From positions 1 to 46,916 of the forward strand of contig JAGASJ010000050.1 of NCBI GenBank assembly GCA_017621795.1: DNA of 46,916 bases, written 5' to 3'. This DNA is from Oscillospiraceae bacterium. GTDB lineage: Bacteria; Bacillota; Clostridia; Oscillospirales; Oscillospiraceae. The notes beneath the pieces were generated by a model. It searched no databases. It saw only the letters and a list, made by a program, of their open reading frames with translations, and had not been told where the DNA came from. The translations under genes were made by a program, and so were the position numbers. This document shows positions 11,529-31,711 of the stretch, piece by piece (the stretch's first letter is position 1; the number at the start of each line of letters is the position of its first letter).

Positions 11529-11709
11529 CGATATAAATTCCTGAAGGAATTTTCGATATGCGCTAACGCGCTCGATATGTGCTAACGCACTCGATATGCC
11601 TTGCGGCGCGACTTGTTGCCGTCAGGCAACATATCGAAATTCTGCGAAACAGAATTATATCGATTTTGCAACGCAAAAATATCGAGTTTGCCCACGGCAA
11701 ACATATCGA
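11529..11709. repeat. Hairpin-ladder array A, unit 1 (TCGATAT linkers)
   Basis: The unit is a chain of short hairpins joined by a constant 7-base linker. In order: (T)CGATAT, AAATTCCTGAAGGAATTT, TCGATAT, GCGCTAACGCGC, TCGATAT, GTGCTAACGCAC, TCGATAT, GCCTTGCGGC, a short joint, GTTGCCGTCAGGCAAC, ATATCGA, AATTCTGCGAAACAGAATT, ATATCGA, TTTTGCAACGCAAAA, ATATCGA, GTTTGCCCACGGCAAAC, ATATCGA. The first four linkers are the reverse complement of the last four, so they can pair in nested order with the hairpins projecting on both sides. The fourth hairpin is slightly decayed compared with unit 2. Function unknown. Confidence 0.9.
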
Positions 11710-11726
11710 CAAAAAATGAATTTCAA

Positions 11727-11914
11727 TCGATATAAATTCCTGAAGGAATTTTCGATATGCGCTAACGCGCTCGATATGTGCTGCCGCACTCGATATGCCC
11801 TGCGGGGCGAGAGAGGCTTGTTGCCGTCAGGCAACATATCGAAATTCTGCGAAACAGAATTATATCGATTTTGCAAAGCAAAAATATCGAGTTTGCCCAC
11901 GGCAAACATATCGA
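11727..11914. repeat. Hairpin-ladder array A, unit 2 (TCGATAT linkers)
   Basis: A tandem second copy of unit 1, separated by 17 bases containing ATGAATTTCA. Stems are the same as in unit 1, but loops differ: the GTGC...GCAC hairpin has loop TGCC instead of TAAC, and the TTTTGC...GCAAAA hairpin has AAA instead of AAC. The fourth hairpin is intact here (GCCCTGCGGGGC). An extra GAGAGAGGC-like insert lies before the GTTGCC hairpin. Confidence 0.9.
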
Positions 11915-11915
11915 C

Positions 11916-11964
11916 AAAAAAGCAGTCATACGAAATATTTTTCGTATGGATCATCGGTTACTGC
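11916..11964 (-). terminator. Branched terminator-like hairpin at the end of the DUF5107 gene, capping array A
   Basis: Read on the minus strand, downstream of the DUF5107 stop, GCAGT and ACTGC can pair around an inner hairpin CATACGAAA/TTTCGTATG, followed by TTTTTT and then the first linker of the array. A related sequence with the same inner hairpin lies in the same relative position after the DUF89 gene (31262-31306). It probably ends the DUF5107 transcript. Confidence 0.6.
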
Positions 11965-11975
11965 AGGGGAGCCTT

Positions 11976-14000
11976 TTAATCCCGGATGATCTGGCCGCCG
12001 TTAAGCCACTGTACATTTTCAAACATCCGGAAATCCGCGAATCTGGGGGGATTTGCGGAAGCACGGTCAAATACCTTGCCGGCAAGCTGTGCCTTTTTTT
12101 CCTCCACCGCGTACCAAAGATCCAGTGTAATGGTCTCGCACTCCCGAATATCCGGGATCAAGATGCCTCCATCCTGATAAAGGATCTTTTCCGCGCCTGC
12201 AATATCCCCACCGTCTGTCAGCGCAAAGCCATAGTAGACCTTACAGCGGGGCTCCTCCCGCAGGTTTTCGGGCATAGACTCGTACACCCGCTTTAAATCG
12301 TCGAAGCGGCGGTTTTCATACAAACAGCGCAGGGTCTGCTTCGCCAGTGACACATCGTGCGGGCGCATTTCGTAGGCTTTGAGCATATTGAAAACCTCTT
12401 TTTGATGCGCGCCCATATCCCGATACAGGATGGAAAGGGCATAAAGCGCCCAGGGAGAACAGCTGAGGCTCAGGGATTTTTCCAGCATGGTTTCTGCCCG
12501 TTCGTAGTCCTTTTCAATAAAGGTATTCAGGCCCAGCTGCAGCCAGGCGAACCAGTTATCCTGATCCTTTTCCCTGACAGCCTGCTTCAGCCGTTCTGTC
12601 CATTCCGGCTGGCACATATAGGAAACAGGGGGCTCTGACGGGTCATACACACCGATGGTGCCCTGTTCCAAAAGGGACAGCCAGGGCATCTGCTCGCTGC
12701 TCAGCGCGCCGAAATCCAGGTAGTCACACATGGATTCCTCGCCGGCACGGCGTCTTCGCTCCTGCTCCAGCGCACCCCATCCGTCGGCACGGAACAATAT
12801 CTCCTCCGCCGGGCTTTTTGCCATAGGCTTGGTGGCCTGCAGCATCAGCTCCAGCTCCTCCTCGGAAATCAGGCTGTCCAGACAGCTTGCCGCCTCCTGC
12901 TTGGCGCTTTCCCAGTCGCCGTGTGCTCTTTTGGGGTCGGTCTGAATGGCACCGTATGCCTCCACCCACTCCCAAACCGTCTTGGGCGGCATCGGCAGAC
13001 ATTCATACTGGGTCTTGGCAATGCCCGCCTGTATCTCATTATAACTGCCGGATGCATCATCCGCAGTAAGAAAGTTTTTCCAGCGGTCGCCGCCGGCACT
13101 GTTGCCCCAAACAAACAGCTTGCGGCCCTTTAACCGTTTTGTGGAGGTCTGCACCAAACCGTAGCCATTTGCATCCACCTGGCAGATAAATTTCCGTTCC
13201 TTGGTGGGAATATTCCAAAAATAGTCAATGGAAATAATATTATTCAGGGGGTATGTAATGTCGATGCCGTTATATTCCGGCACGGCGATCTTCACCGGGT
13301 GGGAATCCCGGGCGGTAAAGGTGTTGGTCACCGGCACGATCACCCGATTTCCGGGCACATCGGGGGCTGCAATGTTGCTCCACCAGTACATCGGCACCAC
13401 TTTAAATTGGGGATTTACGATCTTGGTCCGCACAAACAGCAGCCGTGAGCCCTCCGGCAGGAAGAAATCCATCTGATACACGATGCCGCGAATACGCTCA
13501 TACTGGTAAAAACGCAGTACCGGTGTTCCGTCCGGCAGCTTGGTGCGGGCGGTGTGCATCCAGTCGCAGGTGAAGGCATTATGCCCCACATAGCCGCAGT
13601 TCCACTCCACGCCGCCACTCATCCAGGCATTGCGCACCCCCAAATGACAGGGCCGCACCACAGAATTGACAAAAAGCAGTTCTTTTCCCGCCGCCTTGTC
13701 AAACAGAGAGTGGAGCTTTCCGCCAAACTGGGGCAGAAATGTGGCCCGCAGGTACTCATTTTCCAGCACCACCGTCACCTGCTCCCGATCCTGCAGCTTG
13801 CGGGTGTAGTTATCCTGGGCCTTGTAGGGGAAGCCGTACTCTACCATTCCGTAGTTGACAAACAGCTCGTCCTCTTCCCCCAATTCAAACTCATCCTGCA
13901 TAAAGGTCAGACGCAGATTTTCGGAAATAGAGGGCAGGGTGCTCTCTCCGTTAAAATCCACACTGGGAATATTCATTTTTTCCACATACAGCTGTGTCAT
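11976..14000 (-). CDS. DUF5107 domain protein with TPR repeats
   Basis: A 674-residue protein with no signal peptide. The start ATG at 14000 follows GGGGAGGAAG; an earlier in-frame codon would lie before that site. Residues about 40-330 match DUF5107 (LRATFLPQFGGKLHSLFD, then MSGGVEWNCGYVGHNAF, then MYWWSNIAAPD), a beta-sandwich domain like those of aldose-epimerase/glycosidase-related proteins. The C-terminal half (about 420-650) holds tetratricopeptide repeats (ALYALSILYRDMGAH, AYEMRPHDVSLAKQTLRCLY). DUF5107-TPR proteins commonly sit in sugar-use loci, but no biochemical role is established. It is co-transcribed with the YgjV-like gene, whose stop codon overlaps this gene's ribosome site, and is divergent from the LacI-GH127 gene, which is likely to control it (inference). 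Confidence 0.82.
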   Translation of the reverse strand: MTQLYVEKMNIPSVDFNGESTLPSISENLRLTFMQDEFELGEEDELFVNYGMVEYGFPYKAQDNYTRKLQDREQVTVVLENEYLRATFLPQFGGKLHSLFDKAAGKELLFVNSVVRPCHLGVRNAWMSGGVEWNCGYVGHNAFTCDWMHTARTKLPDGTPVLRFYQYERIRGIVYQMDFFLPEGSRLLFVRTKIVNPQFKVVPMYWWSNIAAPDVPGNRVIVPVTNTFTARDSHPVKIAVPEYNGIDITYPLNNIISIDYFWNIPTKERKFICQVDANGYGLVQTSTKRLKGRKLFVWGNSAGGDRWKNFLTADDASGSYNEIQAGIAKTQYECLPMPPKTVWEWVEAYGAIQTDPKRAHGDWESAKQEAASCLDSLISEEELELMLQATKPMAKSPAEEILFRADGWGALEQERRRRAGEESMCDYLDFGALSSEQMPWLSLLEQGTIGVYDPSEPPVSYMCQPEWTERLKQAVREKDQDNWFAWLQLGLNTFIEKDYERAETMLEKSLSLSCSPWALYALSILYRDMGAHQKEVFNMLKAYEMRPHDVSLAKQTLRCLYENRRFDDLKRVYESMPENLREEPRCKVYYGFALTDGGDIAGAEKILYQDGGILIPDIRECETITLDLWYAVEEKKAQLAGKVFDRASANPPRFADFRMFENVQWLNGGQIIRD

Positions 14001-14016
14001 TTTGATCTTCCTCCCC

Positions 14017-14535
14017 TTAACCTTTGGCAAGCACGCCGTCTTTTCTGTAACGGAAAAGACCTACGATAATAGAAATGATATTGAAAACCTCACAGATGAT
14101 GCCGCCCACAGAGGGTACAGTGCAATTATAGATCAGCCAGCAGGGGGAATCACCCAGCTTTAAAAGCCGAAGCATATTCTCCTTTTTCATATACATTGCC
14201 ACGGTGCCAAATACCGAGCCCACGATCGGCAAAACATCCGGCCAGGACTGCACGCCCACCGAGCCTGCCAGGATCGCGGCGCACAACAGCACCCAAAGCC
14301 ACGCCGGATGCTCCAGCCATTTTTTCTCCCCGCTGAAATAAAAGATCATATTGCGCAGCAGAAAAACGCCGTTGAGATACACCGCCGGCCAGCTTTGCAG
14401 CAGCAGGTAGCTGAGCAAAAAGAAGGTAGAGCCCGCTGTTTGCATCAGAAGGATCTGCTTTCTGGTTTTCATTTGAAACGACACAATGGTCAAAAGCATA
14501 CCCACGATGCTTAGAATCTGCCCAAACGTATCCAT
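14017..14535 (-). CDS. YgjV-like small integral membrane protein
   Basis: A 172-residue protein with five or six hydrophobic segments, matching the Imp-YgjV type of inner-membrane protein (ILSIVGMLLTIVSFQMKTRKQIL near the N-terminus, NGVFLLRNMIFYF, and the closing part with ICEVFNIISIIVGLFRYRK). I prefer the ATG at 14535, 8 bases after GGGAG, over the ATG at 14550. The function of the family is unknown. Its stop codon lies within the ribosome binding site of the DUF5107 gene, indicating tight translational linkage of a membrane protein with a putative sugar-recognition protein. Confidence 0.78.
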   Translation of the reverse strand: MDTFGQILSIVGMLLTIVSFQMKTRKQILLMQTAGSTFFLLSYLLLQSWPAVYLNGVFLLRNMIFYFSGEKKWLEHPAWLWVLLCAAILAGSVGVQSWPDVLPIVGSVFGTVAMYMKKENMLRLLKLGDSPCWLIYNCTVPSVGGIICEVFNIISIIVGLFRYRKDGVLAKG

Positions 14536-14598
14536 TTTTTGCACTCCCATCCCTTGGTTGTAGGGTTTTTTATTGTTTCTATCTTCTTTTTAGCATAA

Positions 14599-14641
14599 TT
14601 TTGCGCAAAAAACAATACCGTTTGCGCATAAATTTGCGCAT
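14599..14641. promoter_or_regulatory. Candidate operator: three copies of TTTGCGCA in a divergent promoter region
   Basis: A 12-bp palindrome TTTTGCGCAAAA (14599-14610) is followed by two direct copies of TTTGCGCAT (14621 and 14633, 12 bases apart, about one helical turn). They lie between the YgjV/DUF5107 operon and the LacI-GH127 promoter, the expected place for an autoregulatory LacI-type operator. Assignment to that regulator is inference. Confidence 0.5.
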
Positions 14642-14659
14642 CAAAAATGCATCAAATCC

Positions 14660-14688
14660 TTGCAATCGTTTCTAAATCATGCTATGAT
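14660..14688 (+). promoter_or_regulatory. Sigma-A-type promoter for the LacI-GH127 gene
   Basis: TTGCAA at 14660-14665 and TATGAT at 14683-14688 are separated by exactly 17 bases. The start would be near 14695, giving an unusually long leader of about 340 bases that contains all of hairpin array C. Confidence 0.65.
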
Positions 14689-14783
14689 ACCAATAAAATT
14701 GACAGACGAAAGACGGAAACCGCCCAGCTCGCCTGAAATCCCGAAATATTATAATCTGTCGGCAGCGCCGACACCTTGTATAA

Positions 14784-14938
14784 ATGAATTGCCTGACGGC
14801 ATGAATTGCATAAATGCATGAATTGCGGTTTCACCCCATGAATTGCGCTGCGGCGCATAAGGCTTTGGCAATTCAATTCATGTTGCTTTGCAACAATTCA
14901 TGATGACTTGTCATCAATTCATGGCAAAGCCAATTCAT
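14784..14938. repeat. Hairpin-ladder array C (ATGAATT linkers)
   Basis: The plan is the same as arrays A and B but the linker is different. Four ATGAATT linkers (14784, 14801, 14818, 14838) alternate with hairpins GCCTGACGGC, GCATAAATGC, a decayed GCGGTTTCACCCC and GCGCTGCGGCGC. After a GGCTTTGGC joint come four AATTCAT linkers (14875, 14895, 14916, 14932) alternating with GTTGCTTTGCAAC, GATGACTTGTCATC and GGCAAAGCC. GTCGGC...GCCGAC hairpins flank it at 14755-14771 and near 14965. It lies in the predicted 5' leader of the LacI-GH127 gene. Confidence 0.9.
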
Positions 14939-15032
14939 CAAATTCAATCAAAATAATTATAATCGTCGGCTCTGCCGACACCATCGTTTTCATCTTTCAT
15001 CTTTCCACTTAAAAACAATCGGAGGAATGTTT

Positions 15033-17333
15033 ATGATTTCCACGCGGGAGCTTGCAGAATTGGCAGGCGTCAGCCAATCCACCATCTCCAGATGCCTGAA
15101 CGATCACCCCTCCATATCCTTTGAAACCAAGCAGCGGGTACGGAAGCTGGCACTGCAATACGGCTACGTAGACCATACGAAAGGAAAAAAAGCCCTGCTC
15201 TCCGGCAAGCGGAGAACGATCGGCATTTTGGTCACCGGCAGAGCCTTTTTTGACGACCTTTTCATCCATTACACCCTGAATCTGCTGATGTCCAAGGCCG
15301 CCGAAAAGAACTTCTACACCATTCCGCTGCCCCTGTCCTCCCACGAAGAGGGCGGCCTTGAAAAGCTGCAGGATCTGATCCGACTGAATATTGTGGACAG
15401 CTTCATCATTCTGCACCGCCATTTTGACCAGGAGCTGCATCAATATCTGAAGGATATCGGCATTCCCCATATCTACCTGCTCCACTGCTCCCGCAATTCT
15501 TACCAGGCGGTGGATATTGTGGATTCGGATAACTACGCCGGAGGCTATTTGGGTACACAGCACTTGATTTCCCACGGTCACAAAGACATTCTCACAGTCA
15601 CCTGTCCCTACCGTGAATACGAGGACCGCACCGACGGCTACCGTCAGGCGCTTACAGAACACGGCATTTCCTTCCGACAGGAGCTGGTGCTGACAGTTGA
15701 TGCCACATACGAAAGCGCGTATCAGGCGGTGAAAGATCATATAAACCTGATTCGTCAGGTCAGCGCCATCTATGTGCAAAGCGATATCCTGGCACTGGGT
15801 GTTGCCAACGCCCTGCAGGATATGGGCATGCAGATCCCCGGGGATATTTCCCTGATCGGCTCTGACGGCTATGCACTGGGGAATATCTCTCACCCCCAAC
15901 TGGACAGCGTGGCCCATCCCACCGAAGAACTGGCAGAGCTGGCACTTTCCCGATTGGTGGAGATCTCGGAAAAAAAGCAGCAAATTCCCCGTCAGATCCT
16001 TTTAAGACCTTATATTATAGAGCGCGGCTCTGTCATAAGAAAGGAAGATCCGATGATGATGCCCATATCCGAACAGGAATTACAGGAACGCATCCGCTTA
16101 AATCACCTGCGCCTTTCCACCGGCGTTTACTATAGCATTGAGGATATTTTTTCCCCGGCGCATTACGACTGGTACGGAGATAAAGAAGGGCGCGCATTAT
16201 TGGCATTTATGTGTCACTATAAAATAAACGGCAGCATCATCCCCTGTATGGAACAAATGCTGGCGCAGCTGCCGGCGCGTTTGAATCCCCAAGGCTACTT
16301 TGGACCGATCCTGGATCACGAAATTCAGGAGCAGCAGCTTTCCGGTCATTCCTGGCTGCTGCGGGGACTTTGCGAGCATTACGAGGTATTTGGGGACGAT
16401 GCCTGCCTGCAGACAGTCCGCAGGATCGTTGAAAACCTGTTCCTGCCAAAGCGGGGCAGATTCTCCTCCTACCCTGTTCACCGTAATATGACAAAAGAGG
16501 GTGGTGTCAGCGGCAGTCAGCTCGGTATCTTAGACGGCTGGATCTTATCCACCGATGTGGGCTGTGCCTTTATGAGCATTGACGGACTTTCCCACGCCTA
16601 CAAGATCACAAAAGATGCCCGCATCAAAGAGCTTTTGGAGGAGATGACCGCCGTATATCTGGGCATCGACAAGGTCGCTCTGCAGGTGCAGACCCACTGC
16701 ACACTCACTGCCGCCCGTGGTATGGTGCGTATGTATCAGGAAACCGGCGACAAAGCCTTTTTGGACGGTGCTGAGGCCATTGCCACCCTTTACTTTGAAG
16801 GGGGCGGTATGACCGCGACCTACCAAAACCTGAACTGGTGGGGACGGCCGGACAGCTGGACTGAGCCCTGTGCCATTGTGGACTCTATGATGCTTGCCGG
16901 GGAACTGTACAAGCTGACCCGTAAGGAACACTACCGCACCCTGGCCGCCCGCATTTATCACAACGGTCTTGCCACCGCCCAGCGGGACAACGGCGGTGCC
17001 GGCACCGATTCCGGGGTAAACGAAAAGGGCACGGATACCCTGATCGCAGGAATGTACGAGGCGTTTTTTTGCTGTACGATGCGGCTTGCGGAAGGTCTTT
17101 GGTACGTCCATAGCAACAAGGAGCTGTTTGCTGCCCGGGTAGAAGGCAAGGTCACAAAAAAAGGTCGGGTCTACACCGACGGCGATATACTCTATGCCCA
17201 GGTCAGCGGCGGCGGGGAAGCCTACGCCGAAAAGCAGGTGACTGTGGATGATCTCGTGCTTTCCCCCCTGATTAAATTCTATAAAGTCCCCCAAAAAATC
17301 ATCGAAACCACAAAACAGAAGATCCTGTTCTGA
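15033..17333 (+). CDS. LacI-type regulator fused to a GH127-like (beta-L-arabinofuranosidase family) domain
   Basis: A 766-residue single protein. The start is ATG 15033, 6 bases after GGAGGA; the ATG at 15027 touches that site. Residues 1-50 are a LacI helix-turn-helix (RELAELAGVSQSTISRCLN), 60-335 a periplasmic-binding-type sensor (IGILVTGRAFFDD, ending with SVAHPTEELAELAL and ERGSVI). From about 370 to the end it resembles GH127/DUF1680 proteins: TCTLTAARG-like helices of an alpha/alpha barrel, NWWGRPDSWTEPCAIVDS with Glu611 and Cys613, and Cys680-Cys681. In characterised GH127 enzymes Glu-x-Cys and a Cys-Cys pair bind zinc and one of these cysteines is the nucleophile. The usual upstream GEAF acid/base glutamate is not at its expected position (Ala595 there), so activity is uncertain. 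No frame break separates the two parts. It is divergent from the YgjV/DUF5107 operon. Confidence 0.85.
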   Translation: MISTRELAELAGVSQSTISRCLNDHPSISFETKQRVRKLALQYGYVDHTKGKKALLSGKRRTIGILVTGRAFFDDLFIHYTLNLLMSKAAEKNFYTIPLPLSSHEEGGLEKLQDLIRLNIVDSFIILHRHFDQELHQYLKDIGIPHIYLLHCSRNSYQAVDIVDSDNYAGGYLGTQHLISHGHKDILTVTCPYREYEDRTDGYRQALTEHGISFRQELVLTVDATYESAYQAVKDHINLIRQVSAIYVQSDILALGVANALQDMGMQIPGDISLIGSDGYALGNISHPQLDSVAHPTEELAELALSRLVEISEKKQQIPRQILLRPYIIERGSVIRKEDPMMMPISEQELQERIRLNHLRLSTGVYYSIEDIFSPAHYDWYGDKEGRALLAFMCHYKINGSIIPCMEQMLAQLPARLNPQGYFGPILDHEIQEQQLSGHSWLLRGLCEHYEVFGDDACLQTVRRIVENLFLPKRGRFSSYPVHRNMTKEGGVSGSQLGILDGWILSTDVGCAFMSIDGLSHAYKITKDARIKELLEEMTAVYLGIDKVALQVQTHCTLTAARGMVRMYQETGDKAFLDGAEAIATLYFEGGGMTATYQNLNWWGRPDSWTEPCAIVDSMMLAGELYKLTRKEHYRTLAARIYHNGLATAQRDNGGAGTDSGVNEKGTDTLIAGMYEAFFCCTMRLAEGLWYVHSNKELFAARVEGKVTKKGRVYTDGDILYAQVSGGGEAYAEKQVTVDDLVLSPLIKFYKVPQKIIETTKQKILF

Positions 17334-17372
17334 TATCATCCCTGATTTAGTTGAAAGATGAAAGTGGAAAGT

Positions 17373-17577
17373 GGCAGGGGACGGGTTATAGTCCCCTGCC
17401 ATTCCGAGACCGGTTCGCAAACCGGTCGTGGGAATCCGTTTTCTTGCGGTGCAAAGCACCGCGCCGCCTTTGGCGGCAAGGGATGCGGATTGCCACGCAC
17501 CTACGGTGCTCGCAATGACATACGGGCGGCATTTTTGCCGCCCGTAATTATTTAAATCGTCGGCTTCGCCGACACCA
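17373..17577. repeat. Composite intergenic repeat: CATTCCGAG/CTCGCAATG element with flanking hairpins
   Basis: After the LacI-GH127 gene come a hairpin GGCAGGGGAC/GTCCCCTGCC (17373-17400), then a 120-base element (17400-17519). In it CATTCCGAG pairs with CTCGCAATG and CGTGGGAATCCG with CGGATTGCCACG, each with one mismatch. Side hairpins are ACCGGTTCGCAAACCGGT and CACCTACGGTG, and the core carries CGGTGCAAAGCACCG and GCCGCCTTTGGCGGC. Then come GGGCGGCATTTTTGCCGCCC (17522 on) and CGTCGGCTTCGCCGAC (17559 on). The whole block is bracketed by short GAAAGTGGAAAGT-type and TTTTCACTTTTC-type tandem motifs in opposite orientation. It is a reverse-complement relative of 46608-46728. No gene is seen between 17334 and 17655. 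Confidence 0.85.
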
Positions 17578-17618
17578 TCACTTTTCACTTTTCTCTTTTC
17601 ACCTTTCACTTTTCACTT

Positions 17619-17650: not shown

Positions 17651-17655
17651 ATTTT

Positions 17656-21477: not shown

Positions 21478-22440
21478 ATGGAGTATTTAGAGCTTACCGT
21501 ATCTACGAGCCCCCGAGGCATCGACACCGTGGTGAACCTCCTGACCGCCGCCGGCTTTGAGGACCTGGTCATTGAGGACCAGCAGGAATTTGAAGCCTTT
21601 TTAGAGGAAAACCGCGCCTACTGGGATTATATTGACGAAGGCCTGGAAGAAAAGCTGCAGGGCCTTTCTCAAATCAAGCTGTATATTGAAAAAGAGGACC
21701 GTGCCGCCCTTTCCCGCATCCAGACCCTTTTGGAAGACCTGCGGAAAAAGCAGGATATCAAGCTGGGCAGCCTGGCGCTGAAGGTGGAGGCGCTGCCGGA
21801 AACCGACTGGTCGGAAAGCTGGAAGGAAAACTATCCCCCCCAGCCGGTGGGTCAAAAGCTGATCGTTCTGCCTTACTGGATGGCAGATGAAACCCAGGGG
21901 CGTCTGCCGGTGATCCTGGACCCGGGTCTGACCTTTGGTACCGGTGCCCATCCCTCCACCCGTATGGTGATGGAGTTTATGGAGGAGCTGCCCCTTCAGG
22001 GCGCCCATTGCCTGGATCTTGGCAGCGGAAGCGGTATTTTGTCCATCGCGGCGCTTCGTTTGGGCGCGGAAAGTGCCACCGGTGTGGACATCGACCCCAA
22101 AGCTGAGGATATCGCCCGGGAAAACGCCGCCTATAACGGCTACGACGCCGGATGCTTCACCGCACTGACCGGCAACGTCACCGCCGACAAAAAGCTGATG
22201 GGCACCCTGCAAAATAAGACCTACAAGCTGGTGCTTGTAAACATCGTGGCAGATGTGATCATCGGTCTTGCCCCCGTTTTGCCCCAATTTTTGCAGAAAG
22301 ACAGCATTTTACTGCTCTCCGGAATCCTGGATACCCGTTTGCAGGACGTTTTGCAGGCGTTGAATGCGGCAAAATTAGAGGTTTTGGAGCAAAAGGCGCA
22401 GGAAGACTGGAGAAGCCTGAAAGTGAGGAAAATCCAATGA
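21478..22440 (+). CDS. prmA: Ribosomal protein L11 methyltransferase
   Basis: PrmA uses S-adenosylmethionine to methylate lysines and the N-terminus of ribosomal protein L11. The 320-residue length is normal. The N-terminal part (MEYLELTVST) is the substrate-recognition domain. The catalytic domain shows DPGLTFGTGAHPSTRMVMEF, the SAM-binding LDLGSGSGILSIAALRLGA and the acidic strand end GVDIDP, then NIVADVIIGLAP. The ATG follows AGGAGGG by 7 bases. The stop codon overlaps the next start (ATGA), so the following membrane-anchored protein is translationally coupled. Confidence 0.95.
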   Translation: MEYLELTVSTSPRGIDTVVNLLTAAGFEDLVIEDQQEFEAFLEENRAYWDYIDEGLEEKLQGLSQIKLYIEKEDRAALSRIQTLLEDLRKKQDIKLGSLALKVEALPETDWSESWKENYPPQPVGQKLIVLPYWMADETQGRLPVILDPGLTFGTGAHPSTRMVMEFMEELPLQGAHCLDLGSGSGILSIAALRLGAESATGVDIDPKAEDIARENAAYNGYDAGCFTALTGNVTADKKLMGTLQNKTYKLVLVNIVADVIIGLAPVLPQFLQKDSILLLSGILDTRLQDVLQALNAAKLEVLEQKAQEDWRSLKVRKIQ

Positions 22441-24292: not shown

Positions 24293-24390
24293 ATGAATTG
24301 CGCTGCGGCGCATACAGGAAAAGGCGGCAGGGGATGCGGATTGCCACGGGCGCAAGCGCCCTCGCAATGACAATTCCTTCGGACGCACGC
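24293..24390. repeat. Fragments of two intergenic repeat families
   Basis: ATGAATT followed by hairpin GCGCTGCGGCGC (24293-24311) is identical to one linker-hairpin step of array C. It is followed by the right half of the GTCATTGCGAG family: CGGATTGCCACG, a side hairpin GGGCGCAAGCGCCC, CTCGCAATGAC, then AATTCCTTCGGACG, which is also found at the border of 46608-46728. The left half is missing. Confidence 0.8.
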
Positions 24391-24421: not shown

Positions 24422-24425
24422 TTTT

Positions 24426-26336
24426 TTATTCCAAACGTACTGCCACGACGGTGGCATCGTCCTGACCGCTGATCTGCTCGCAGAACAAGATGGCCTCGGC
24501 AATGGTCTGCTCCGGCTGACCGCACAGGTCCATACAGCACCGAAAGGCCGCCGACTCGGTCACCCCGTCACTGACGATCCACAGCAATCGTTCTCCCTTT
24601 AAAGAGCTGTGCTCTGCCCGTTCCTGTTCCAGGGTAACGGATAAGCCCGGCGGCGGTGTGGATGCCCCCAGCTTCTCCGCCCCATACTTTCCTGTAATAT
24701 AAGAAGGGGGTGCACCCCATTTATAAAGGGTCAGCTTTCCGCTGCTTAGATCCAATTCCGCCAGATCCACCGTTACCGCGCCGCCCCGTCCCCGCAGGGC
24801 ACACAGGCTGTTTAAGCTGCGCAGTGCGTAGGAGGCGGGAAAGCCTGCGGTGAGCATTTTTTGCAGCAGTCCCGCGGCGGTTTTTCCCTCCTGCACCGCC
24901 CCCAAGCCTGTACCCATACCGTCACACAGCAGTACGTAATATTTACATCCCACCCCTGCAAAATGTACACAGCGGTCACCGCTGTCTGCCTTGGGACGGT
25001 TGGAAAACACCCGCACTTTTGGGGTATAGCGGCTCACTGCCGTTTCTGCCCGTCGGGGCAGACGGTCGGAAAGCTCCTGTAAAAAGGCCGCAAGGAAGCT
25101 GTACTGCTGTACCACCGCCGCCCGATATTCCATCTGCCGTTCACGGTCGGCGTGGATGGAGCGCAGCTGCTCCTGACAGCGGTGCAGCTCTGCCAGTACC
25201 CGCCCGGATTTGCGGCAAATAATGGGCAGCTCCTCCACGGAGATCAGCGGTTTATGCAGTACAACAGACGGAAGACCGCTGAGCCGTTTGGAATCCCGAC
25301 AGTTCTTTCGGTACGAACAGCCGCTGCAGGCCCGTTCTGTTCCCCGATACATCAGCGCGTCCTCGTCTACCGGGGGCACGTCCGTTTCCATCAGAAGGCT
25401 CCTTGTCTGCTGTAAAACCCCTGCCGCCATCTCCAGCCGCACCTGTGTAATGCCGGTCTCTCCCCGTCGGAACACGGTTTTGGGCACACCGGGGATCAGC
25501 ACCCCGCACACACCGCCCAGCAGCAGTCCCACAGGCGGCTGCAGATCCCAGCTTTTCAGCAGATTCACCACGGCAAAATATGTAAGCACCGGACTGATCG
25601 CCCGCAGGGTCTTACTGCATCGGGGCAAAAAACGCACCAAATAAGACAGTGTCAGCACCGCGGTCATCGGTACCGGTGTAACCTGAGAAAGATCCAGCGC
25701 CAGGCCGCTGATGGCGGCAGCGGGAAATGCCCCGCCGCTGGTCACCGCACCGGCGGCAATATAGCCCAGTCCCAAATAGGAAACAGGCAATATCTGGGCA
25801 AGGGCAAAAACCGCAATGCCGGTAGAAAGCCACTCCAAAAGGGGATTTCTGCCCTGTAACACTCTGTAAAACAGGTAGCTGCAGCCTGCGCCCAAAAAAA
25901 TGCGGATCAGGTAAATGCCGATGGGGGTAGTATCTAAAAAGGCCAGCTGGAAGCACACCCCGGCGGCCGCCAGCAAAAAGCCAATGATGGCAGGTAAAAG
26001 CAGCGGTGCTTTGCGGTATGTACGGGTGGCAGAAAGCAGCAGCCCTACCGGCAGTGCCGCCACGGTCCAAAATGCCCCCACTCTCCCCGCACTGCCCCAA
26101 AACAGCCCGTAGCCCAGCACCCCGCCTAAGGTTGCCGAAACCGCCGACCAGCCTCCACAGGCACCCACCAGTGCCATGGGCAGGGGCAGGCAGTAGTTGC
26201 GCAGACCGGCGGCACTGAGCACAAAGGCGGCGGCAAAGTAGATGAGCCCCCGGGCAAAGCGATGGATACGGGGGTTTAACAGGTGGCGGCGCAATGCCGT
26301 TTTCAGTCTCAAACCCCGATCTTGAGATAGAATCAT
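24426..26336 (-). CDS. spoIIE: Stage II sporulation protein E, PP2C serine phosphatase
   Basis: SpoIIE dephosphorylates the anti-anti-sigma factor SpoIIAA to activate sigma-F in the forespore and is a septum-associated membrane protein. This protein has about 636 residues from ATG 26336 (a GTG at 26345 is possible but too close to AAAGG). The first 290 residues contain about ten hydrophobic segments; a cysteine cluster (RACSGCSYRKNC) precedes the regulatory region; the C-terminal phosphatase has YYVLLCDGMGTG, LWIVSDGVTE and the metal-binding end GQDDATVVAVRLE. It is shorter than the Bacillus protein (about 830 residues). Upstream at 26390-26396, TGTCGGA differs by one base from the Spo0A box TGTCGAA, a weak but fitting regulatory hint. 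It shows the organism is spore-forming. Confidence 0.92.
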   Translation of the reverse strand: MILSQDRGLRLKTALRRHLLNPRIHRFARGLIYFAAAFVLSAAGLRNYCLPLPMALVGACGGWSAVSATLGGVLGYGLFWGSAGRVGAFWTVAALPVGLLLSATRTYRKAPLLLPAIIGFLLAAAGVCFQLAFLDTTPIGIYLIRIFLGAGCSYLFYRVLQGRNPLLEWLSTGIAVFALAQILPVSYLGLGYIAAGAVTSGGAFPAAAISGLALDLSQVTPVPMTAVLTLSYLVRFLPRCSKTLRAISPVLTYFAVVNLLKSWDLQPPVGLLLGGVCGVLIPGVPKTVFRRGETGITQVRLEMAAGVLQQTRSLLMETDVPPVDEDALMYRGTERACSGCSYRKNCRDSKRLSGLPSVVLHKPLISVEELPIICRKSGRVLAELHRCQEQLRSIHADRERQMEYRAAVVQQYSFLAAFLQELSDRLPRRAETAVSRYTPKVRVFSNRPKADSGDRCVHFAGVGCKYYVLLCDGMGTGLGAVQEGKTAAGLLQKMLTAGFPASYALRSLNSLCALRGRGGAVTVDLAELDLSSGKLTLYKWGAPPSYITGKYGAEKLGASTPPPGLSVTLEQERAEHSSLKGERLLWIVSDGVTESAAFRCCMDLCGQPEQTIAEAILFCEQISGQDDATVVAVRLE

Positions 26337-26419
26337 ACAAATCACAGCCTTTCTTTGAAAATTCTATCACCTGCAAAGCAATTTTTTTGTCGGAAAGCCC
26401 CCCGAAATCAGAAAGATTC

Positions 26420-26448
26420 TTGCACTATGAGAAAGAAAGGTGTATAAT
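26420..26448 (+). promoter_or_regulatory. Promoter of the CYTH-exonuclease-aminotransferase-murI-udk gene string
   Basis: TTGCAC (26420-26425) and TATAAT (26443-26448) with a 17-base spacer; transcription would start about 20 bases before the CYTH gene. No terminator is visible before 31250, so the six following genes may be one operon. Confidence 0.8.
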
Positions 26449-26477
26449 GGTAAAAGGAAAAGTACGGGGGTGAGATC

Positions 26478-27053
26478 ATGGCTGTAGAGTACGAATTAAA
26501 ATTCAGGGCCGAGTGCAGTGTTTTGCAGGCGCTGAGCAAGGCGTTCCCTGCGGATCACGTGCATTTTGAAATGCAGACCACCTATTACGACACCCCCGCC
26601 CGCACCCTCTCCGCCAGGCACTACACATTGCGCCTGCGGCAGGAAAACGAGAAAAAAGTATGCACCCTGAAGTCCCCGGCAGAAGGCTACGGACGGCAGG
26701 AGCTGGAAATAGAATGCCCCACCATCGAAGAAGGGCTTAAAATGTTATGTAAACTGGATTGTCCCAAGGATTTTCCGTCTTTGGTGGCAGAGGGCGTGCA
26801 GGCTGTGTGCGGCGCGAAATTTTCCCGTATTGCCATTCCCGTGATCACCGACTGCTTTCAGGCGGAGCTGGCACTGGACGAAGGCATCCTCTTTTCCAAG
26901 GACCGTACAGCCCCCCTTTGCGAGGTGGAGCTGGAATATAAAGGCGGCGACCGTGCAGAGATGACCGCCTATGCCCGAATCCTTGCCACGCTTTACGGCT
27001 TGGAGCCGGAGGAGCAAAGCAAATTTGCCCGTGCTCTGCAATTAGGAGAATAA
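26478..27053 (+). CDS. CYTH domain protein (triphosphate tunnel enzyme family)
   Basis: A 191-residue CYTH protein. The diagnostic ExExK motif is at residues 4-8 (EYELK), and further family signatures are TYYDTPARTL, LRLRQENEKKVCTLKSP and EVELEYKGG near the end. CYTH enzymes form a beta-barrel tunnel that binds divalent metal and a triphosphate; bacterial members include inorganic triphosphatase and thiamine triphosphatase. The exact substrate cannot be told. The ATG follows GGGGTGAGATC. It is the first gene of the operon, 2 bases before the exonuclease gene. Confidence 0.88.
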   Translation: MAVEYELKFRAECSVLQALSKAFPADHVHFEMQTTYYDTPARTLSARHYTLRLRQENEKKVCTLKSPAEGYGRQELEIECPTIEEGLKMLCKLDCPKDFPSLVAEGVQAVCGAKFSRIAIPVITDCFQAELALDEGILFSKDRTAPLCEVELEYKGGDRAEMTAYARILATLYGLEPEEQSKFARALQLGE

Positions 27054-27055
27054 AT

Positions 27056-27742
27056 ATGGCCTTTGAAGCTTTTTTTGAAAAATACGACAGATTGTTCCTG
27101 TTTGATACAGAAACCACCGGTTTAAGCTTTCAAAACGATGAAATTATTGAATTTGCGGCGGTGGTCGTGGAGCAGGTAAAGGGCGTACCCACCATTATAA
27201 AAGAGTATGACGAGCTCATCACCCTCTCTCCCGGCAAGACTGTGCCCCCGGTGATCGTAAACCTGACCGGCATCACCGATGCAGATATTGCCGCCCGCGG
27301 TATCCCCAAAAGCCGTGTTTGCGCCGATATTGGGGAAATGATTACGGAAAACACCCTTCTTTTGGCGTATAATGCCCATTTTGACCTGAGTTTTCTTTTC
27401 TATTTGCTGATGAAGCACGGAGATCCGGGGATTTTGAAGGGCCTGGATAAAATTGATCTGTACACGGTCTACAAAGACCGCCGCCCATACCCCCACAAGC
27501 TGTGCAACGCCATCGAAGCCTACGGCCTGCAGGGCAAGGTCAAAAACTCCCACCGTGCCGTGGACGATGTGATCGCCACCGTGGCGGTGATGGAGGAGAT
27601 GGAAAAGGAGAAAGCAGATATTCTGCGTTATGTAAACCTATTTGGTTACCATCCCACCTACGGCTTAGGCTCTAAGCCCATCCGTTCTGTGACTTATAAG
27701 CCCCAGTATTACGACCATCCCGTACCCCTGTACGAAGCATAA
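27056..27742 (+). CDS. 3'-5' exonuclease, DnaQ/PolC epsilon-like
   Basis: A 228-residue DEDDh exonuclease. The three motifs are visible: Exo I LFDTETTGL (Asp17, Glu19), Exo II YNAHFDLSFL and Exo III HRAVDDVIAT. Stand-alone proteins of this kind serve in proofreading or DNA/RNA turnover; it is not part of a polymerase here. The stop of the CYTH gene overlaps its AGGAGA ribosome site. The C-terminal 40 residues (HPTYGLGSKPI) lie outside the nuclease fold. Confidence 0.92.
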   Translation: MAFEAFFEKYDRLFLFDTETTGLSFQNDEIIEFAAVVVEQVKGVPTIIKEYDELITLSPGKTVPPVIVNLTGITDADIAARGIPKSRVCADIGEMITENTLLLAYNAHFDLSFLFYLLMKHGDPGILKGLDKIDLYTVYKDRRPYPHKLCNAIEAYGLQGKVKNSHRAVDDVIATVAVMEEMEKEKADILRYVNLFGYHPTYGLGSKPIRSVTYKPQYYDHPVPLYEA

Positions 27743-27754
27743 GAGGTATCAACT

Positions 27755-28936
27755 ATGGTAAATGCCGATGCCTATGAATTGGGCACCAACCGTTCCTGTA
27801 TTCGGGAATTATTTGAATACGGCTTGATGCGCGCCCGGGTGGTGGGCAAGGATCAGGTATACGATTTTTCCCTGGGCAATCCCTGTATTCCTGCCCCGGA
27901 GGAAGTCCGTCAGACCATCGAAACTCTGTTGCGGGAGACCGACTCCCTGACCCTGCACGGCTATACCTCCGCAGTGGGGGATTACGAGACCCGCCAGGCC
28001 ATTGCTGACGATCTGAATCGGCGCTTTGATGCCCACGCACAGGCAGAGGATCTTTTCATCACCTGCGGTGCCGCCCCCGGACTGTGCGCCGTTTTAGGCG
28101 GGCTCAGTGTGCCCGGCGGGAAGGTGCTGGCACTTGCCCCTTATTTTCCGGAATACAAGCCCTTTACCTTAGGCGCAGGGCTGGAATTTGACGATGTAAA
28201 GGCAGATGTACCTGCCTTTCAGATCCCTTTTGATGCTCTGAAAGAAGCGCTGACGCCCAATGTGGTGGCGCTGATCGTCAACTCCCCCAATAATCCTGCA
28301 GGCACGGTCTACACCCGTCAAACCCTTTCCCGTCTTTCCGCACTGCTGACGGAAAAGGCGGCAGAATTTGGTCACCCCATCTATATTATTTCCGACGAGC
28401 CCTACAGAGAATTGGTATACGGGGATGCCAAAGTTTCCTTTATTCCCAAGCTGTACAAAGACACCATTGTGTGCTACTCCTATTCCAAATCCCTGTCTTT
28501 GCCCGGTGAACGCATCGGCTATGTGTATGTGCCGTCTGCGGCTTCCGACAGCAAGGCCGTATACGGCGCGGTGGCAGGAGCGGCCCGAAAAATGGGCCAC
28601 GTGTGCGCCCCTTCTCTGTGGCAAAAGGTCATTGCCCGCTGTACAGCCCTTCGTCCCGACCTGCTCTCCTACGACCGCAACCGCCGTGCCCTTTATGAGG
28701 GCTTGACGGAGATGGGTTATACCGTTGCCAAGCCGGAGGGTGCGTTCTATCTGTTTGTAAAAGCCCCCAATGGCGACAGCATCGCCTTCAGCCGGCTGGC
28801 GAAAAGCCACGACCTGCTGATCGTCCCCGGTGAGGGCTTCGGCTGTGCAGGCTGGGTGCGGCTGTGCTACTGTGTCAGCTACGATACCATTATGGGTAGT
28901 CTGCCCATCTTTAAAAAATTGATGGATACGCTGTAA
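27755..28936 (+). CDS. Class I/II pyridoxal-phosphate-dependent aminotransferase
   Basis: A 393-residue fold-type I aminotransferase that moves amino groups between amino acids and 2-oxo acids. Seen: DFSLGNPCIPAP and LHGYTSAVGDYETR near the N-terminus, NSPNNPAG at 176-183, SDEPY at 213-217 and the cofactor lysine Lys245 in SYSKSLSLPGERIGY, then an Arg-containing GWVRLCYC near the end for carboxylate binding. The substrate is not evident; relatives are often annotated as aspartate-type aminotransferases. The start follows AAGAGGT. It lies 12 bases after the exonuclease gene and just before glutamate racemase. Confidence 0.92.
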   Translation: MVNADAYELGTNRSCIRELFEYGLMRARVVGKDQVYDFSLGNPCIPAPEEVRQTIETLLRETDSLTLHGYTSAVGDYETRQAIADDLNRRFDAHAQAEDLFITCGAAPGLCAVLGGLSVPGGKVLALAPYFPEYKPFTLGAGLEFDDVKADVPAFQIPFDALKEALTPNVVALIVNSPNNPAGTVYTRQTLSRLSALLTEKAAEFGHPIYIISDEPYRELVYGDAKVSFIPKLYKDTIVCYSYSKSLSLPGERIGYVYVPSAASDSKAVYGAVAGAARKMGHVCAPSLWQKVIARCTALRPDLLSYDRNRRALYEGLTEMGYTVAKPEGAFYLFVKAPNGDSIAFSRLAKSHDLLIVPGEGFGCAGWVRLCYCVSYDTIMGSLPIFKKLMDTL

Positions 28937-28958
28937 AAAAACAGCACAATGATGAAAA

Positions 28959-29744
28959 GTGGTGAAGAAATTGACGGAAAAAACCGACTATATCGGCGTT
29001 TTTGATTCCGGCGTAGGCGGCATCAGTGTCCTGCGGGAGCTGGTCGCCTGTATGCCCAATGAACGATTTTTATATTTCGGCGACTCCGCCAACGCCCCCT
29101 ACGGCACAAAGCCGAAGGAGCAGATTTGCCAGCTTGCGCTGAACAATGCAAAGCTGCTGATGGGCTACAATGTCAAGGCCATCGTGGTAGCCTGCAACAC
29201 CGCCACCGCAGTGGCCATCGACCTTTTGCGGCAGACTTATCCCGACACCATCATCATCGGCATTGAGCCTGCCATTAAGCCCGCAGTACAGCGTTTTCCC
29301 AACGGCACACTGGCCATTATGGCCACCCCCGCCACCCTTCAGGGGGAAAAGCTGCAACGCCTGATGGCACAAAATCCCCACAGCAATTTGGTGAAGATCC
29401 CCGCCCCGGGGATGGTGGAGCTGGTGGAAGCGGGACTTTCCGACAGTCCTCAGATGGATGCTTTTCTCCACAACCTGTTAGACCCCTACGCCGGCAGGCT
29501 GGACGGTCTGATCTTGGGCTGTACCCATTACCCCTTCGCGGTGCGGTCTATCCGACGGGTGCTGGGGGAGCAGACGGTGCTTTTTGACGGCGGTGCCGGC
29601 ACAGCCCGGGAAACACGCCGCCGCTTAGCAGAAAAAGACCTTCTTTCCCAAGGAAAAGGCGAGGTCGTGATCATCAACAGCAGCGCAGACAAGTCCGTTA
29701 TGCAGCTGTGCAACACTTTACTGACGGAGGATCATCATGGATAA
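28959..29744 (+). CDS. murI: Glutamate racemase
   Basis: MurI makes D-glutamate for peptidoglycan. The protein has 261 residues, the usual size. Motifs: GVFDSGVGG (catalytic Asp), YFGDSANAPYGTK, VVACNTATA with the first catalytic Cys and LGCTHYPF with the second Cys and His. The start is uncertain: GTG at 28959 or 28962 has no clear ribosome site, while TTG at 28971 follows GGTGAAG; all leave the fold complete. The end overlaps udk by 8 bases. Confidence 0.95.
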   Translation: MVKKLTEKTDYIGVFDSGVGGISVLRELVACMPNERFLYFGDSANAPYGTKPKEQICQLALNNAKLLMGYNVKAIVVACNTATAVAIDLLRQTYPDTIIIGIEPAIKPAVQRFPNGTLAIMATPATLQGEKLQRLMAQNPHSNLVKIPAPGMVELVEAGLSDSPQMDAFLHNLLDPYAGRLDGLILGCTHYPFAVRSIRRVLGEQTVLFDGGAGTARETRRRLAEKDLLSQGKGEVVIINSSADKSVMQLCNTLLTEDHHG

Positions 29745-30354
29745 TATCCTGGTAATCGGCATTGCGGGAGGCAGTGGCAGCGGCAAGACCACCCTGACCA
29801 AAAAGCTGATCGAAAAATTCGGCGACAACATCACCGTTCTGAGCCACGACAACTATTATAAACGCCACGACGAGCTGACCTACGAGCAGCGGGCACAGCT
29901 CAACTACGACGAGCCGGAGGCGCTGGACACCAGCCTGATGGTGTATCAGCTGGATCAGCTGCGCCACGGGCAGGCCATCGACTGTCCTTTATACGATTTT
30001 ACCCAGCACAACCGCAGTAACGAGACCATCCGCATCAACCCGGAACGGGTGATCCTGGTGGAGGGCATTATGATCTTCGCCAGCGAGGAGCTGCGGAATC
30101 TGATGGATATTCGGATCTTTGTGGACACCGACGCGGATATTCGCCTGTGCCGCCGCATCAAGCGGGACGTGACCAAGCGTGGTCGAAGCCTGGAATCGGT
30201 AATCGCCCAGTATAAGGCCACCGTGAAACCCATGCACGAAAAGCACGTGGAGCCCAGCAAAAAATACGCCGACCTGGTGGTGCCTGAGGGCGGTAAAAAC
30301 GAGGTGGCGCTGGATATGATCGAGGGGCGCATCCGCCGTCATTTGGAGGGCTGA
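29737..30354 (+). CDS. udk: Uridine kinase
   Basis: Uridine kinase phosphorylates uridine and cytidine in pyrimidine salvage. The 205-residue protein has the P-loop GIAGGSGSGKT at residues 8-18, SHDNYYKR for substrate binding, YDFTQHNRS, ILVEGIMIF (Walker B strand) and RLCRRIKRDV with the lid arginines. The start follows GGAGG by 6 bases and overlaps the end of murI by 8 bases. It is one base before the next start. Confidence 0.95.
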   Translation: MDNILVIGIAGGSGSGKTTLTKKLIEKFGDNITVLSHDNYYKRHDELTYEQRAQLNYDEPEALDTSLMVYQLDQLRHGQAIDCPLYDFTQHNRSNETIRINPERVILVEGIMIFASEELRNLMDIRIFVDTDADIRLCRRIKRDVTKRGRSLESVIAQYKATVKPMHEKHVEPSKKYADLVVPEGGKNEVALDMIEGRIRRHLEG

Positions 30355-30355
30355 G

Positions 30356-31246
30356 ATGGGCATTCCAATGAATACCCTGTGCGTCAAATGCCTCATTAAT
30401 AAGCACATCGACAACGCCCAAAATTTGGGCACGCAGGCGCAGGCAAACGCCTTTGTGAGGGAAATTCTGCGGCTTTTTTCCGATCAGGAGCAGTGGAATT
30501 CCTCTATGATGGGAAAACATATCAACGAGCTCTATGTTCGCCACTACGGCCTGCCCTACGACCGCTTTCAGGAGGAAAAAAGACGCTCCAACGAATATGT
30601 AAAGGAACGTCTGCCCCGTATTCGGCAAAAGGTGCAAAATAGCGAAGACCCCATCTACACCGCACTGCAATACGCCATTATGGGCAATTACATCGACTTT
30701 TCCGCACTGGGGAAAAACGTCTCCTTCGATACACTGGAGCAAATGCTGGAAGAGCCGGAAAAATTTGCGGTGGACAAAACCGTTTACCGCCAATTCCGGG
30801 AGGAATTGTCCCGGGCAGAAACCATGCTTTATATTACCGATAACGCCGGTGAGATCGGCTTTGACATGGTGCTGGCAGAGGAACTGCAGAAGTGTTATGT
30901 AAACCTAAAGATCACCTTCTGCGTCCGCGGAAAGCCGGCACTGAACGATGCTATGCGGGAGGATGCGGCCTTTATGGAGCTTCCTTTCCCCGTGATCGAC
31001 AACGGAAACGATGTAGGAGGCACAGAGCTTTCACTGTGCAATAAAAAGACCCGTGATGCAGTTTCAGGTGCCCACGTGGTGCTGGCAAAGGGAATGGGCA
31101 ACACCGAAACCCTTTACGGCTGCGGATATAATATTTTCTACGCCTTTTTAGTAAAATGCCCCCGATTTATGGAATTTTTTAAAAAGCCCTTTATGACCAC
31201 CATGTTCATCCGGGAAGGGCAAGATCAAATATGCGGAGTGATGTAA
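30356..31246 (+). CDS. DUF89 (ARMT1-like) metal-dependent phosphatase
   Basis: A 296-residue DUF89 protein. Family features: the N-terminal Cys pair CVKC (Cys9, Cys12), LYITDNAGEIGFD with the metal-binding Asp-Asn, KITFCVRGKPALNDA, VIDNGNDVGGTE and VLAKGMGNTETL. DUF89 enzymes are described as metabolite damage-control phosphatases acting on sugar or cofactor phosphates; the substrate here is unknown. It starts one base after the udk stop, which suggests joint expression and possibly a role in clearing phosphorylated by-products (inference). The gene is followed by the terminator-like cap of hairpin array B. Confidence 0.88.
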   Translation: MGIPMNTLCVKCLINKHIDNAQNLGTQAQANAFVREILRLFSDQEQWNSSMMGKHINELYVRHYGLPYDRFQEEKRRSNEYVKERLPRIRQKVQNSEDPIYTALQYAIMGNYIDFSALGKNVSFDTLEQMLEEPEKFAVDKTVYRQFREELSRAETMLYITDNAGEIGFDMVLAEELQKCYVNLKITFCVRGKPALNDAMREDAAFMELPFPVIDNGNDVGGTELSLCNKKTRDAVSGAHVVLAKGMGNTETLYGCGYNIFYAFLVKCPRFMEFFKKPFMTTMFIREGQDQICGVM

Positions 31247-31261
31247 AAGCCTTCACTGCAT

Positions 31262-31306
31262 TAACCGCAGATTTATACGAATAATACTTCGTATGACTGC
31301 CTTTTT
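31262..31306 (+). terminator. Terminator-like hairpins capping array B after the DUF89 gene
   Basis: CTGC(ATTAACC)GCAG and ATACGAA/TTCGTAT hairpins are followed by ACTGCCTTTTTG, then the first linker of array B. It corresponds to the cap of array A after the DUF5107 gene, in the same orientation relative to the upstream gene. Confidence 0.5.
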
Positions 31307-31307
31307 G

Positions 31308-31495
31308 TCGATATGTTTGCCGTGGGCAAACTCGATATTTTTGCTTTGCAAAATCGATATAATTCTGTTTCGCAGAATTTCGATATGTTGCCTAACGGCA
31401 ACAAGCCCCTCTCGCCCCGCAGGGCATATCGAGTGCGTCAGCACATATCGAGCGCGTCAGCGCATATCGAAAATTCCTTCAGGAATTTATATCGA
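31308..31495. repeat. Hairpin-ladder array B, unit 1 (TCGATAT linkers)
   Basis: The cleanest example. In order: TCGATAT, GTTTGCCGTGGGCAAAC, TCGATAT, TTTTGCTTTGCAAAA, TCGATAT, AATTCTGTTTCGCAGAATT, TCGATAT, GTTGCCTAACGGCAAC, a joint, GCCCCGCAGGGC, ATATCGA, GTGCGTCAGCAC, ATATCGA, GCGCGTCAGCGC, ATATCGA, AAATTCCTTCAGGAATTT, ATATCGA. It is array A read on the other strand, so it has the same orientation relative to the upstream gene. Stems equal those in array A; loops differ. Confidence 0.92.
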
Positions 31496-31511
31496 CGAAT
31501 TTCATTTTTTG

Positions 31512-31711
31512 TCGATATGTTTGCCGTGGGCAAACTCGATATTTTTGCTTTGCAAAATCGATATAATTCTGTTTCGCAGAATTTCGATATGTTGCCTAAC
31601 GGCAACAAGTTCGATATAAATCCCTTCTCGCCCCGCAGGGCATATCGAGTGCGTCAGCACATATCGAGCGCGGTAGCGCATATCGAAAATTCCTTCAGGA
31701 ATTTATATCGA
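31512..31711. repeat. Hairpin-ladder array B, unit 2 (TCGATAT linkers)
   Basis: Tandem second copy, joined to unit 1 by CGAATTTCATTTTTTG. An additional TCGATAT with AAATCCC has been inserted after the GTTGCC hairpin, and the GCGC hairpin has loop GGTA instead of GTCA. It is followed directly by the inverted repeat at 31713-31741. No gene is seen in 31247-31813. Confidence 0.9.

Follow-up and report, generated by a model that had tools for sequence, protein, structure and literature searches.

Intergenic hairpin ladders of gut Clostridia share a 4+4 inverted-linker plan, have linkers that change with a PF05635 four-helix-bundle protein and are probably mobile

We investigated a 46,916-nucleotide stretch of DNA from Oscillospiraceae bacterium (GenBank assembly GCA_017621795.1, contig JAGASJ010000050.1; hereafter the window), which contains five ladder units across three loci (Table 1). 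Each unit consists of four linker-hairpin steps, a centre, and then hairpins alternating with the inverted linker, and nearly every gap holds its own short hairpin. The linker TCGATAT forms two tandem pairs of units in opposite orientations, on the plus strand at 11529-11914 and on the minus strand at 31308-31711, and the linker ATGAATT forms a single unit at 14784-14938. A sequence-only reading of this DNA had reported three loci with a 7-base linker four times in one orientation and four times inverted, and we confirmed this plan by reading the five units directly. The exact count held for four of them; the fifth, at 31512-31711, is 5+4, with a central linker that is absent from the window's other units. 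The first unit at 11529 has an exact 7-mer count of 3+4, due to the variant linker GCGATATA, and a 6-mer (CGATAT) count of 4+4. Three features had escaped that reading: a central strand that copies the 3' arm of the first hairpin, a hairpin that precedes the element, and the tandem duplication.

Table 1. Coordinates of ladder units and associated features in the window.
Feature	Position	Strand	Remarks
Piece of the B-locus preceding-hairpin arm	11516-11528	+	AATGAATTTCAAG, just before A1
Ladder unit A1 (TCGATAT family)	11529-11709	+	first linker is the variant GCGATATA
Ladder unit A2	11727-11914	+	4+4, tandem copy of A1
Right flank of A	11915-11978	+	matches DNA beside locus B and beside B's sister-genome orthologue
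Ladder unit C (ATGAATT family)	14784-14938	+	4+4
Centre of unit C	14867-14882	+	GGCAATTCA, complementary to TGAATTGCC; from sequence
Ladder unit B1 (TCGATAT family)	31308-31495	-	4+4, element reads on the minus strand
Ladder unit B2	31512-31711	-	5+4, central strand retained
B2 central strand	31611-31624	-	minus-strand GGGATTTATATCGA, near-complementary to the element's 5' end
Hairpin h0	31713-31741	-	13-bp stem without mismatch, immediately ahead of B's 5' end

In unit C, the stretch TGAATTGCC at 14785-14793 spans linker 1 together with the 5' arm of hairpin 1, and one of the hairpins, GCGGTTTCACCCC, is imperfect. We found no Rfam match at the gathering score over the window and none up to E=1 at 11300-15100, in agreement with the earlier statement that no named family is known with this plan; nor was there an rRNA match in the window, or at 11300-15100 with a loose threshold. 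No description of the ladders was found in the open PMC literature, a coverage that excludes preprints. As a separate observation, a second hairpin repeat of the form TATAATC..GTCGGC..GCCGAC stands on either side of unit C (14744-14771 and 14952-14977), the two copies being in direct orientation, and occurs alone at 17545-17572, 33695-33722 and 46753-46780.

We assessed the chance level of the plan with a sequence-blind detector for a 6- or 7-base word occurring at least three times forward and then at least three times as its reverse complement. It returned 16 (6-mer) and 9 (7-mer) overlapping matches in the window, every one within the three loci, and none in each of 20 first-order Markov shuffles. 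With a looser 2+2 rule for 6-mers, two of the 20 shuffles gave one match each, and the window gave one extra match near 22277. Across 171 fetched loci (1,215,287 bases, many selected for holding the TCGATAT type) we identified 122 ladder clusters, 110 of which were left once repeats had been removed, and shuffled versions of these loci held no ladder cluster. Linker number and orientation were not random: exactly 4+4 was the commonest form (54/122), with 20 clusters of 4+3, 15 of 3+4, 9 of 3+3, 15 of five-plus-four on either side and 9 others. Non-CGATAT linkers in this set were AAATCA, ATGAATT, AGTTAT, ATGATG, AACATC, ATGAAG, TGAAAT and GTGATG. The 4+4 plan is thus a class that recurs with many unrelated linkers, and its topology is conserved. 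The earlier claim that topology rather than sequence is kept stands for the class as a whole; within a family the linker is conserved and follows the partner protein described below. The TCGATAT-type end pattern was present in at least 115 matching stretches in species genomes, nearly all titled gut Clostridia or Oscillospiraceae, with a few matches elsewhere (Nitrosovibrio, Ezakiella) that may be chance, and in eight IMG/VR viral contigs (L164-L171).

On the same strand, several ladders lead into a PF05635-family gene (23S rRNA IVP; TIGR02436 four helix bundle protein). We found a PF05635 match in 37 of 60 related genomes, and ten in the window's own genome, none of them on the window's contig; the window's ladder copies are solitary. 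Surroundings were read for 92 of the 103 matches listed (the other 11 were mostly short or under the cut-off), and the 360 bases upstream were scored by dynamic programming for four linkers plus four inverted linkers, with a maximum of 56. The score was at least 48 in 49/90 upstream regions and at least 50 in 37/90; no shuffled region reached 48 (0/90, none above 47), and on the downstream side 7/88 did. Control acetyltransferase (PF00583) genes from the same genomes had no ladder upstream (0/30) or downstream (0/30). Tiling of 13 blind stretches (109,175 bases, 285 tiles) gave one score of 48, likely a false positive, and none of at least 50, with two true ladders (L016, L019) in these stretches being cut by the tiling. 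In a new sample from other families of the class, a non-random set of 40 loci picked below the 30 best-scoring matches, several per genome, 29/38 upstream regions scored at least 48 and 21/38 at least 50, against 0/38 shuffles. Among the 30 best-scoring class-level matches, only four upstream regions scored 48 or more and two scored 53 or more. Finally, 10 of the 83 CGATAT-family elements that were oriented adjoin a PF05635 gene, which in every case lies downstream and on the element's strand, as read with a gene caller that can miss some genes.

The sequence-only reading had listed spread by a recombinase that recognises junctions among the possible roles. No recombinase was found, and the partner is instead this four-helix-bundle protein. 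A reverse transcriptase acting in trans was also rejected, as the distribution of RVT_1 does not track that of ladder proteins: it occurs in 26/60 genomes and is absent from at least ten with ladder-type proteins, although the drafts may be incomplete. One locus of the window's genome (L010, G000 contig C18) recalls a cassette array, in which rlmD, a ladder, an ASCH gene, a ladder, a 105-aa gene, an acyltransferase-like gene, a ladder and a PF05635 gene lie on one strand.

We compared the linkers with a tree of 85 PF05635 proteins, which has few columns and several weak forks, and in which clades were grouped after the tree had been seen. Ladder-bearing rows made up 0/19 of the canonical clade, 0/8 of the KSKEFAL clade, 1/7 of a seven-row clade (a borderline score of 48) and 45/51 of the remainder, one row of which has no upstream DNA. 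The 12 linker classes on these 45 rows, assigned by eye, require 11 changes on the protein tree, which is the minimum possible, against a mean of 32 and a minimum of 26 for shuffled labels; one doubtful ladder with a score of 48 (L238) was left out of the linker-class and fold counts. Among the 38 new loci, predicting the linker from the closest of the earlier proteins gave the top-scoring class in 24, where chance would give about 1 in 11, and the prediction was right in all 18 loci in which some known class scored at least 50. For these 18 proteins, identity to the nearest relative is 78-88% (92-94% for one, which falls just under the limit), although most of the pairs span different families. 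RlmD of the window's genome has 33-47% identity to its best full-length matches in other families of its order, and the high identity of the ladder proteins by comparison suggests horizontal transfer, with the qualification that the genome pairs differ.

Linker patterns and protein classes were also associated across genomes. The CGATAT pattern was present in 6/6 genomes with an F-class protein and 12/54 without (p 3.7e-4; p 0.0016 without G055, which was assigned to class F by protein clade and whose ladder score is 45), and the GTGAAAT pattern in 9/10 genomes with a D-class protein and 7/50 without (p 6.8e-6), with cross-controls at p 1 and 0.33. Both associations are partly built in, because the pattern also matches the ladder beside the gene, and were set aside. 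The place of the gene beside the ladder and the fit of linker to tree make it very probable that protein and ladder are a cognate pair.

The placement of the ladders is oriented. The upstream neighbour gene of oriented CGATAT-family elements lies on the same strand in 64/80 cases, and the downstream neighbour on the same strand in 40 and on the opposite strand in 33. A hairpin ends within 4 nt of the first linker in 63/82 elements, compared with 4/82 in shuffled sequence and 13/82 at the other end. Thus, at gene ends, ladders tend to lie immediately 3' of a hairpin. The rlmD loci were particularly informative. A ladder directly follows the gene in 5/30 of them, with TCGATAT or GCGATAT linkers in three, GTGAAGT in one and ATGAATT in one. 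Four of these five carry a perfect palindrome of 14-18 bp in which the last bases of the rlmD coding sequence form the left arm, and in the fifth (L265) the palindrome is present by eye, with mismatches. No stem of more than 6 pairs was found at that place in the 23 readable ladder-less loci (25 minus two that run off the contig); in ladder-less G027, rlmD runs straight into the ASCH gene, which in the window's genome lies past the ladder. The inverted copy of the rlmD end, present with the ladder and absent without it, indicates that an inverted host copy goes with the insertion.

Copy number differs between close relatives. Locus B is syntenic with a contig of a sister genome (Oscillospiraceae RGIG4196, L097; 86.5 and 88.7% identity) that carries one ladder where the window has two, indicating duplication of one unit, for which the window's lineage is the simplest place. 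When an empty site for locus B was sought in other relatives through its neighbour gene, the loci were non-syntenic, with another ladder nearby in 1/20, and the neighbouring genes of locus A had no match in the sister genome. Locus A bears about 64 bases of B-flanking DNA and a piece of B's preceding hairpin, which suggests, from sequence likeness, that it was copied from B. The sister genome (G351) holds eight full-length ATGAATT copies that are 84-95% identical to unit C. In the six copies read, the left edge lies exactly at the first linker and the right flank is common for at least 75 bases, and thus the left boundary is sharp and the right is not; four of the six have different hairpins in front. 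In G002, which has one PF05635 match, there are 55 GTGAAAT triple matches on at least nine contigs.

From these comparisons we infer movement, and regard mobility of the ladder as probable. Somewhat less firmly, we favour reading the units as non-autonomous copies, standing alone, of a small mobile DNA element that has a cognate protein; a non-autonomous mobile element was among the guesses of the sequence-only reading, and is now the best of them.

Several observations weigh against this reading. The agreement between linker and protein could come simply from joint inheritance. The GTGAAAT pattern is found in 16 of the 60 relatives, seven of which have no D-class protein, and the CGATAT pattern in 12 of the 54 genomes without an F-class protein, some of them by chance; in G046, with 43 CGATAT triple matches, we found no F-class protein, either because the family is an orphan there or because the gene was missed. 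No catalytic activity is known for PF05635 proteins, nor is any demonstrated here. The rlmD comparisons are all between species, and neither a target-site duplication nor an empty site precise to the nucleotide was obtained. The A and B copies carry stretches of neighbouring DNA, which implies imprecise copying, and two of the six G351 copies, identical to each other and with identical flanks, have no preceding hairpin. Finally, unit C does not form the nested ladder fold and is weak as DNA (z -2.7) and as RNA (z -2.0), and all four nested stems appear in the minimum-energy DNA fold of 38/142 units and the RNA fold of 25/142 (on the opposite strand, 47 units as DNA and 28 as RNA).

The nested ladder of four-way junctions expected from the sequence-only reading was recovered for A2 and B2, which fold in this form as DNA (z -9.0 and -9.1), and not for unit C or for most units overall. 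Covariation of linkers in nested order, likewise expected, proved weak: among the 24 possible orders the nested one ranks second for complementarity (154 units; permutation p 0.001), a small effect that weakly supports specific nested pairing. A stronger signal came from the centre, which is complementary to the first linker plus the first hairpin arm in 92/142 units, compared with 5 and 1 for the next two arms, and recurs with different letters in many linker families. This central complementarity competes with the nested form, which may account for the many units in which the ladder is not the top fold.

The foremost alternative, which we consider unlikely, is that the ladder works as RNA: a structured leader 5' of the gene, which the protein binds on its own mRNA, and elsewhere a processing or stability module of 3' untranslated regions that spread secondarily. 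An adjoining ladder always lies on the strand of the protein gene (10/10), solitary ladders match the strand of the upstream gene in 64/80 cases, and relatives of the protein are encoded in 23S rRNA intervening sequences (PMC4990558). RNA folding is strong (z -7.0 for A2, mean -6.5 over 40 units), but DNA folding lies further from the shuffles (mean -8.5), and unit C is weak as RNA, though weak as DNA too. Apparent UUCG loops (CTTCGG, 34 vs 3) dominate the left half of the units, but the bias is mirrored in the other half as GCGAAG (30 vs 3), a symmetry to be expected were both DNA strands to matter. The stems have almost no G-U pairs: among 2519 pairs in 446 hairpins of 116 units we counted 2499 Watson-Crick, 8 G-T, 2 A-C and 10 other pairs, using a stem finder that prefers Watson-Crick pairs but handles G-T and A-C alike, and linker pairs have no G-U excess (30 G-T, 52 A-C). 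Near-pure Watson-Crick stems speak for DNA, which we believe to be the likelier working form, while leaving room for RNA.

An improbable second alternative is that the ladder resembles a miniature inverted-repeat transposable element whose movement depends on an unrelated transposase or a host enzyme, with the four-helix-bundle gene as cargo or in another role. The absence of a known catalytic domain in PF05635 would fit, as would the 73/83 oriented CGATAT-family copies without an adjoining PF05635 gene and the many copies in G046, whose matching protein class was not found. A chance cargo would not, however, be expected to keep a constant gene position across linker classes and families, or to show the fit between linker and tree; and a reverse transcriptase is unnecessary, at least ten genomes with ladder-type proteins having no RVT_1 match. 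Much less probable still is a toxin-antitoxin-like or anti-phage system in which solitary ladders serve as decoys: a small gene immediately preceded by repeat-bearing nucleic acid may resemble type III toxin-antitoxin loci, but three ladder-type proteins matched no PADLOC or PHROGs model. Coincidental nested insertion of palindromes can be dismissed, as linker number and order recur across classes and genomes and shuffled loci contain no such cluster.

For the mobile element that we favour, a complete unit would be a ladder followed by a PF05635 gene on the same strand, each protein subclade having its own linker sequence. The protein would bind the linkers while the ladder DNA is single-stranded or in cruciform shape, and would act in trans on solitary copies, and the four linker pairs and the hairpins would build a stack of four-way junctions. 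The central strand, able to pair with linker 1 plus the 5' arm of hairpin 1, may mark the 5' end of the element. At a terminator hairpin or one that resembles a REP (repetitive extragenic palindromic) sequence, a DNA 3' end could then fold back and copy its own upstream flank, generating hairpin h0, after which a template switch onto the ladder would make a new copy. A host polymerase is assumed, because no catalytic protein of the element is known. Fold-back copying, whose chemistry we infer, is a tentative proposal, as is its corollary, that ladder and cognate protein might be a new kind of mobile element moving by fold-back priming at hairpins close to gene ends and template switching onto the extruded ladder, without a transposase or reverse transcriptase of its own.

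If this proposal were true, the 5' junction of each insertion would keep an inverted host copy, and the PF05635 family would acquire a general role, that of binding structured DNA specifically. Since a PF05635 clade lies beside an element whose recognition sequence changes with the protein, the function of the family becomes directly testable, and about a dozen protein-linker pairs form a natural set for studying how structured DNA is read. If mobile, the ladders would be an unnoticed repeat class shaping intergenic regions in gut Clostridia, with an insertion mark, an inverted host gene end, that no element compared here leaves.

Compared with known systems, the ladder works like a REPtron, in which a cognate protein goes with scattered palindromic repeats, but lacks those hallmarks of REPs, rRNA intervening sequences, retroelements and Rfam families that were tested. 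REPs are reported to co-evolve with TnpA-REP/RAYT proteins (PMC8266576) and to be defined by a conserved GTAG (or CGTC) motif 5' of a hairpin (PMC3733652). Ladders share with REPs, REPtrons and bacterial interspersed mosaic elements an intergenic palindromic form, a short conserved motif with a hairpin, many solitary copies and a co-evolving cognate protein gene, and co-evolution of repeat and protein was evident here (11 changes vs 32 when shuffled; 18/18 predictions). In contrast, none of the 12 ladder linker classes is GTAG, a unit keeps one linker but varies its hairpin stems, and the ladder has a fixed 4+4 plan of about 155-200 bases with a central strand complementary to its 5' end. The REP partner is an HuH transposase, whereas the gene beside the ladders is a PF05635 four-helix bundle, no search aimed at Y1 transposases (PF01797) having been made. 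Repeats of the form CGTAGGGGCGGATATCATCCGCCCG, which resemble GTAG-type REPs, occur in the window in both orientations (33616-33693, 34627-34655, 43061-43085 and 46475-46499), and similar hairpins precede some ATGAATT ladders in G351.

The 23S rRNA intervening sequences place a PF05635/TIGR02436 protein beside structured nucleic acid and have been called selfish elements, their proteins having been known for decades without a function, and the portion of that source consulted mentions no linker ladder (PMC4990558). Complete ladder units likewise encode a PF05635 protein, which the window copies do not, but the ladder lies outside rRNA and upstream of the gene rather than around it, and the protein belongs to a different clade. 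Avd of diversity-generating retroelements has a homologous four-helix-bundle fold (PMC10053308). Unlike those retroelements, ladders have no reverse transcriptase nearby, and in at least ten genomes none was found anywhere. Group IIC introns insert in oriented fashion just 3' of terminator-like hairpins. Ladders too sit just 3' of hairpins, but they are much smaller, with no Rfam match in the window and no intron-encoded protein. Integron attC sites were included in the comparison since contig C18 carries small genes between ladders.

We additionally noted repeats elsewhere in the window. Five repeats of about 500 bases at 329-2860, 60-80% alike over 93 bases, probably encode a repeated domain of a minus-strand protein. 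The interspersed repeat CTCGCAATGACAATTCCTTCGGAC forms an inverted pair at 24356-24389 and 46590-46623 (94% alike), and AT-rich nested palindromes lie at 42959-43149.

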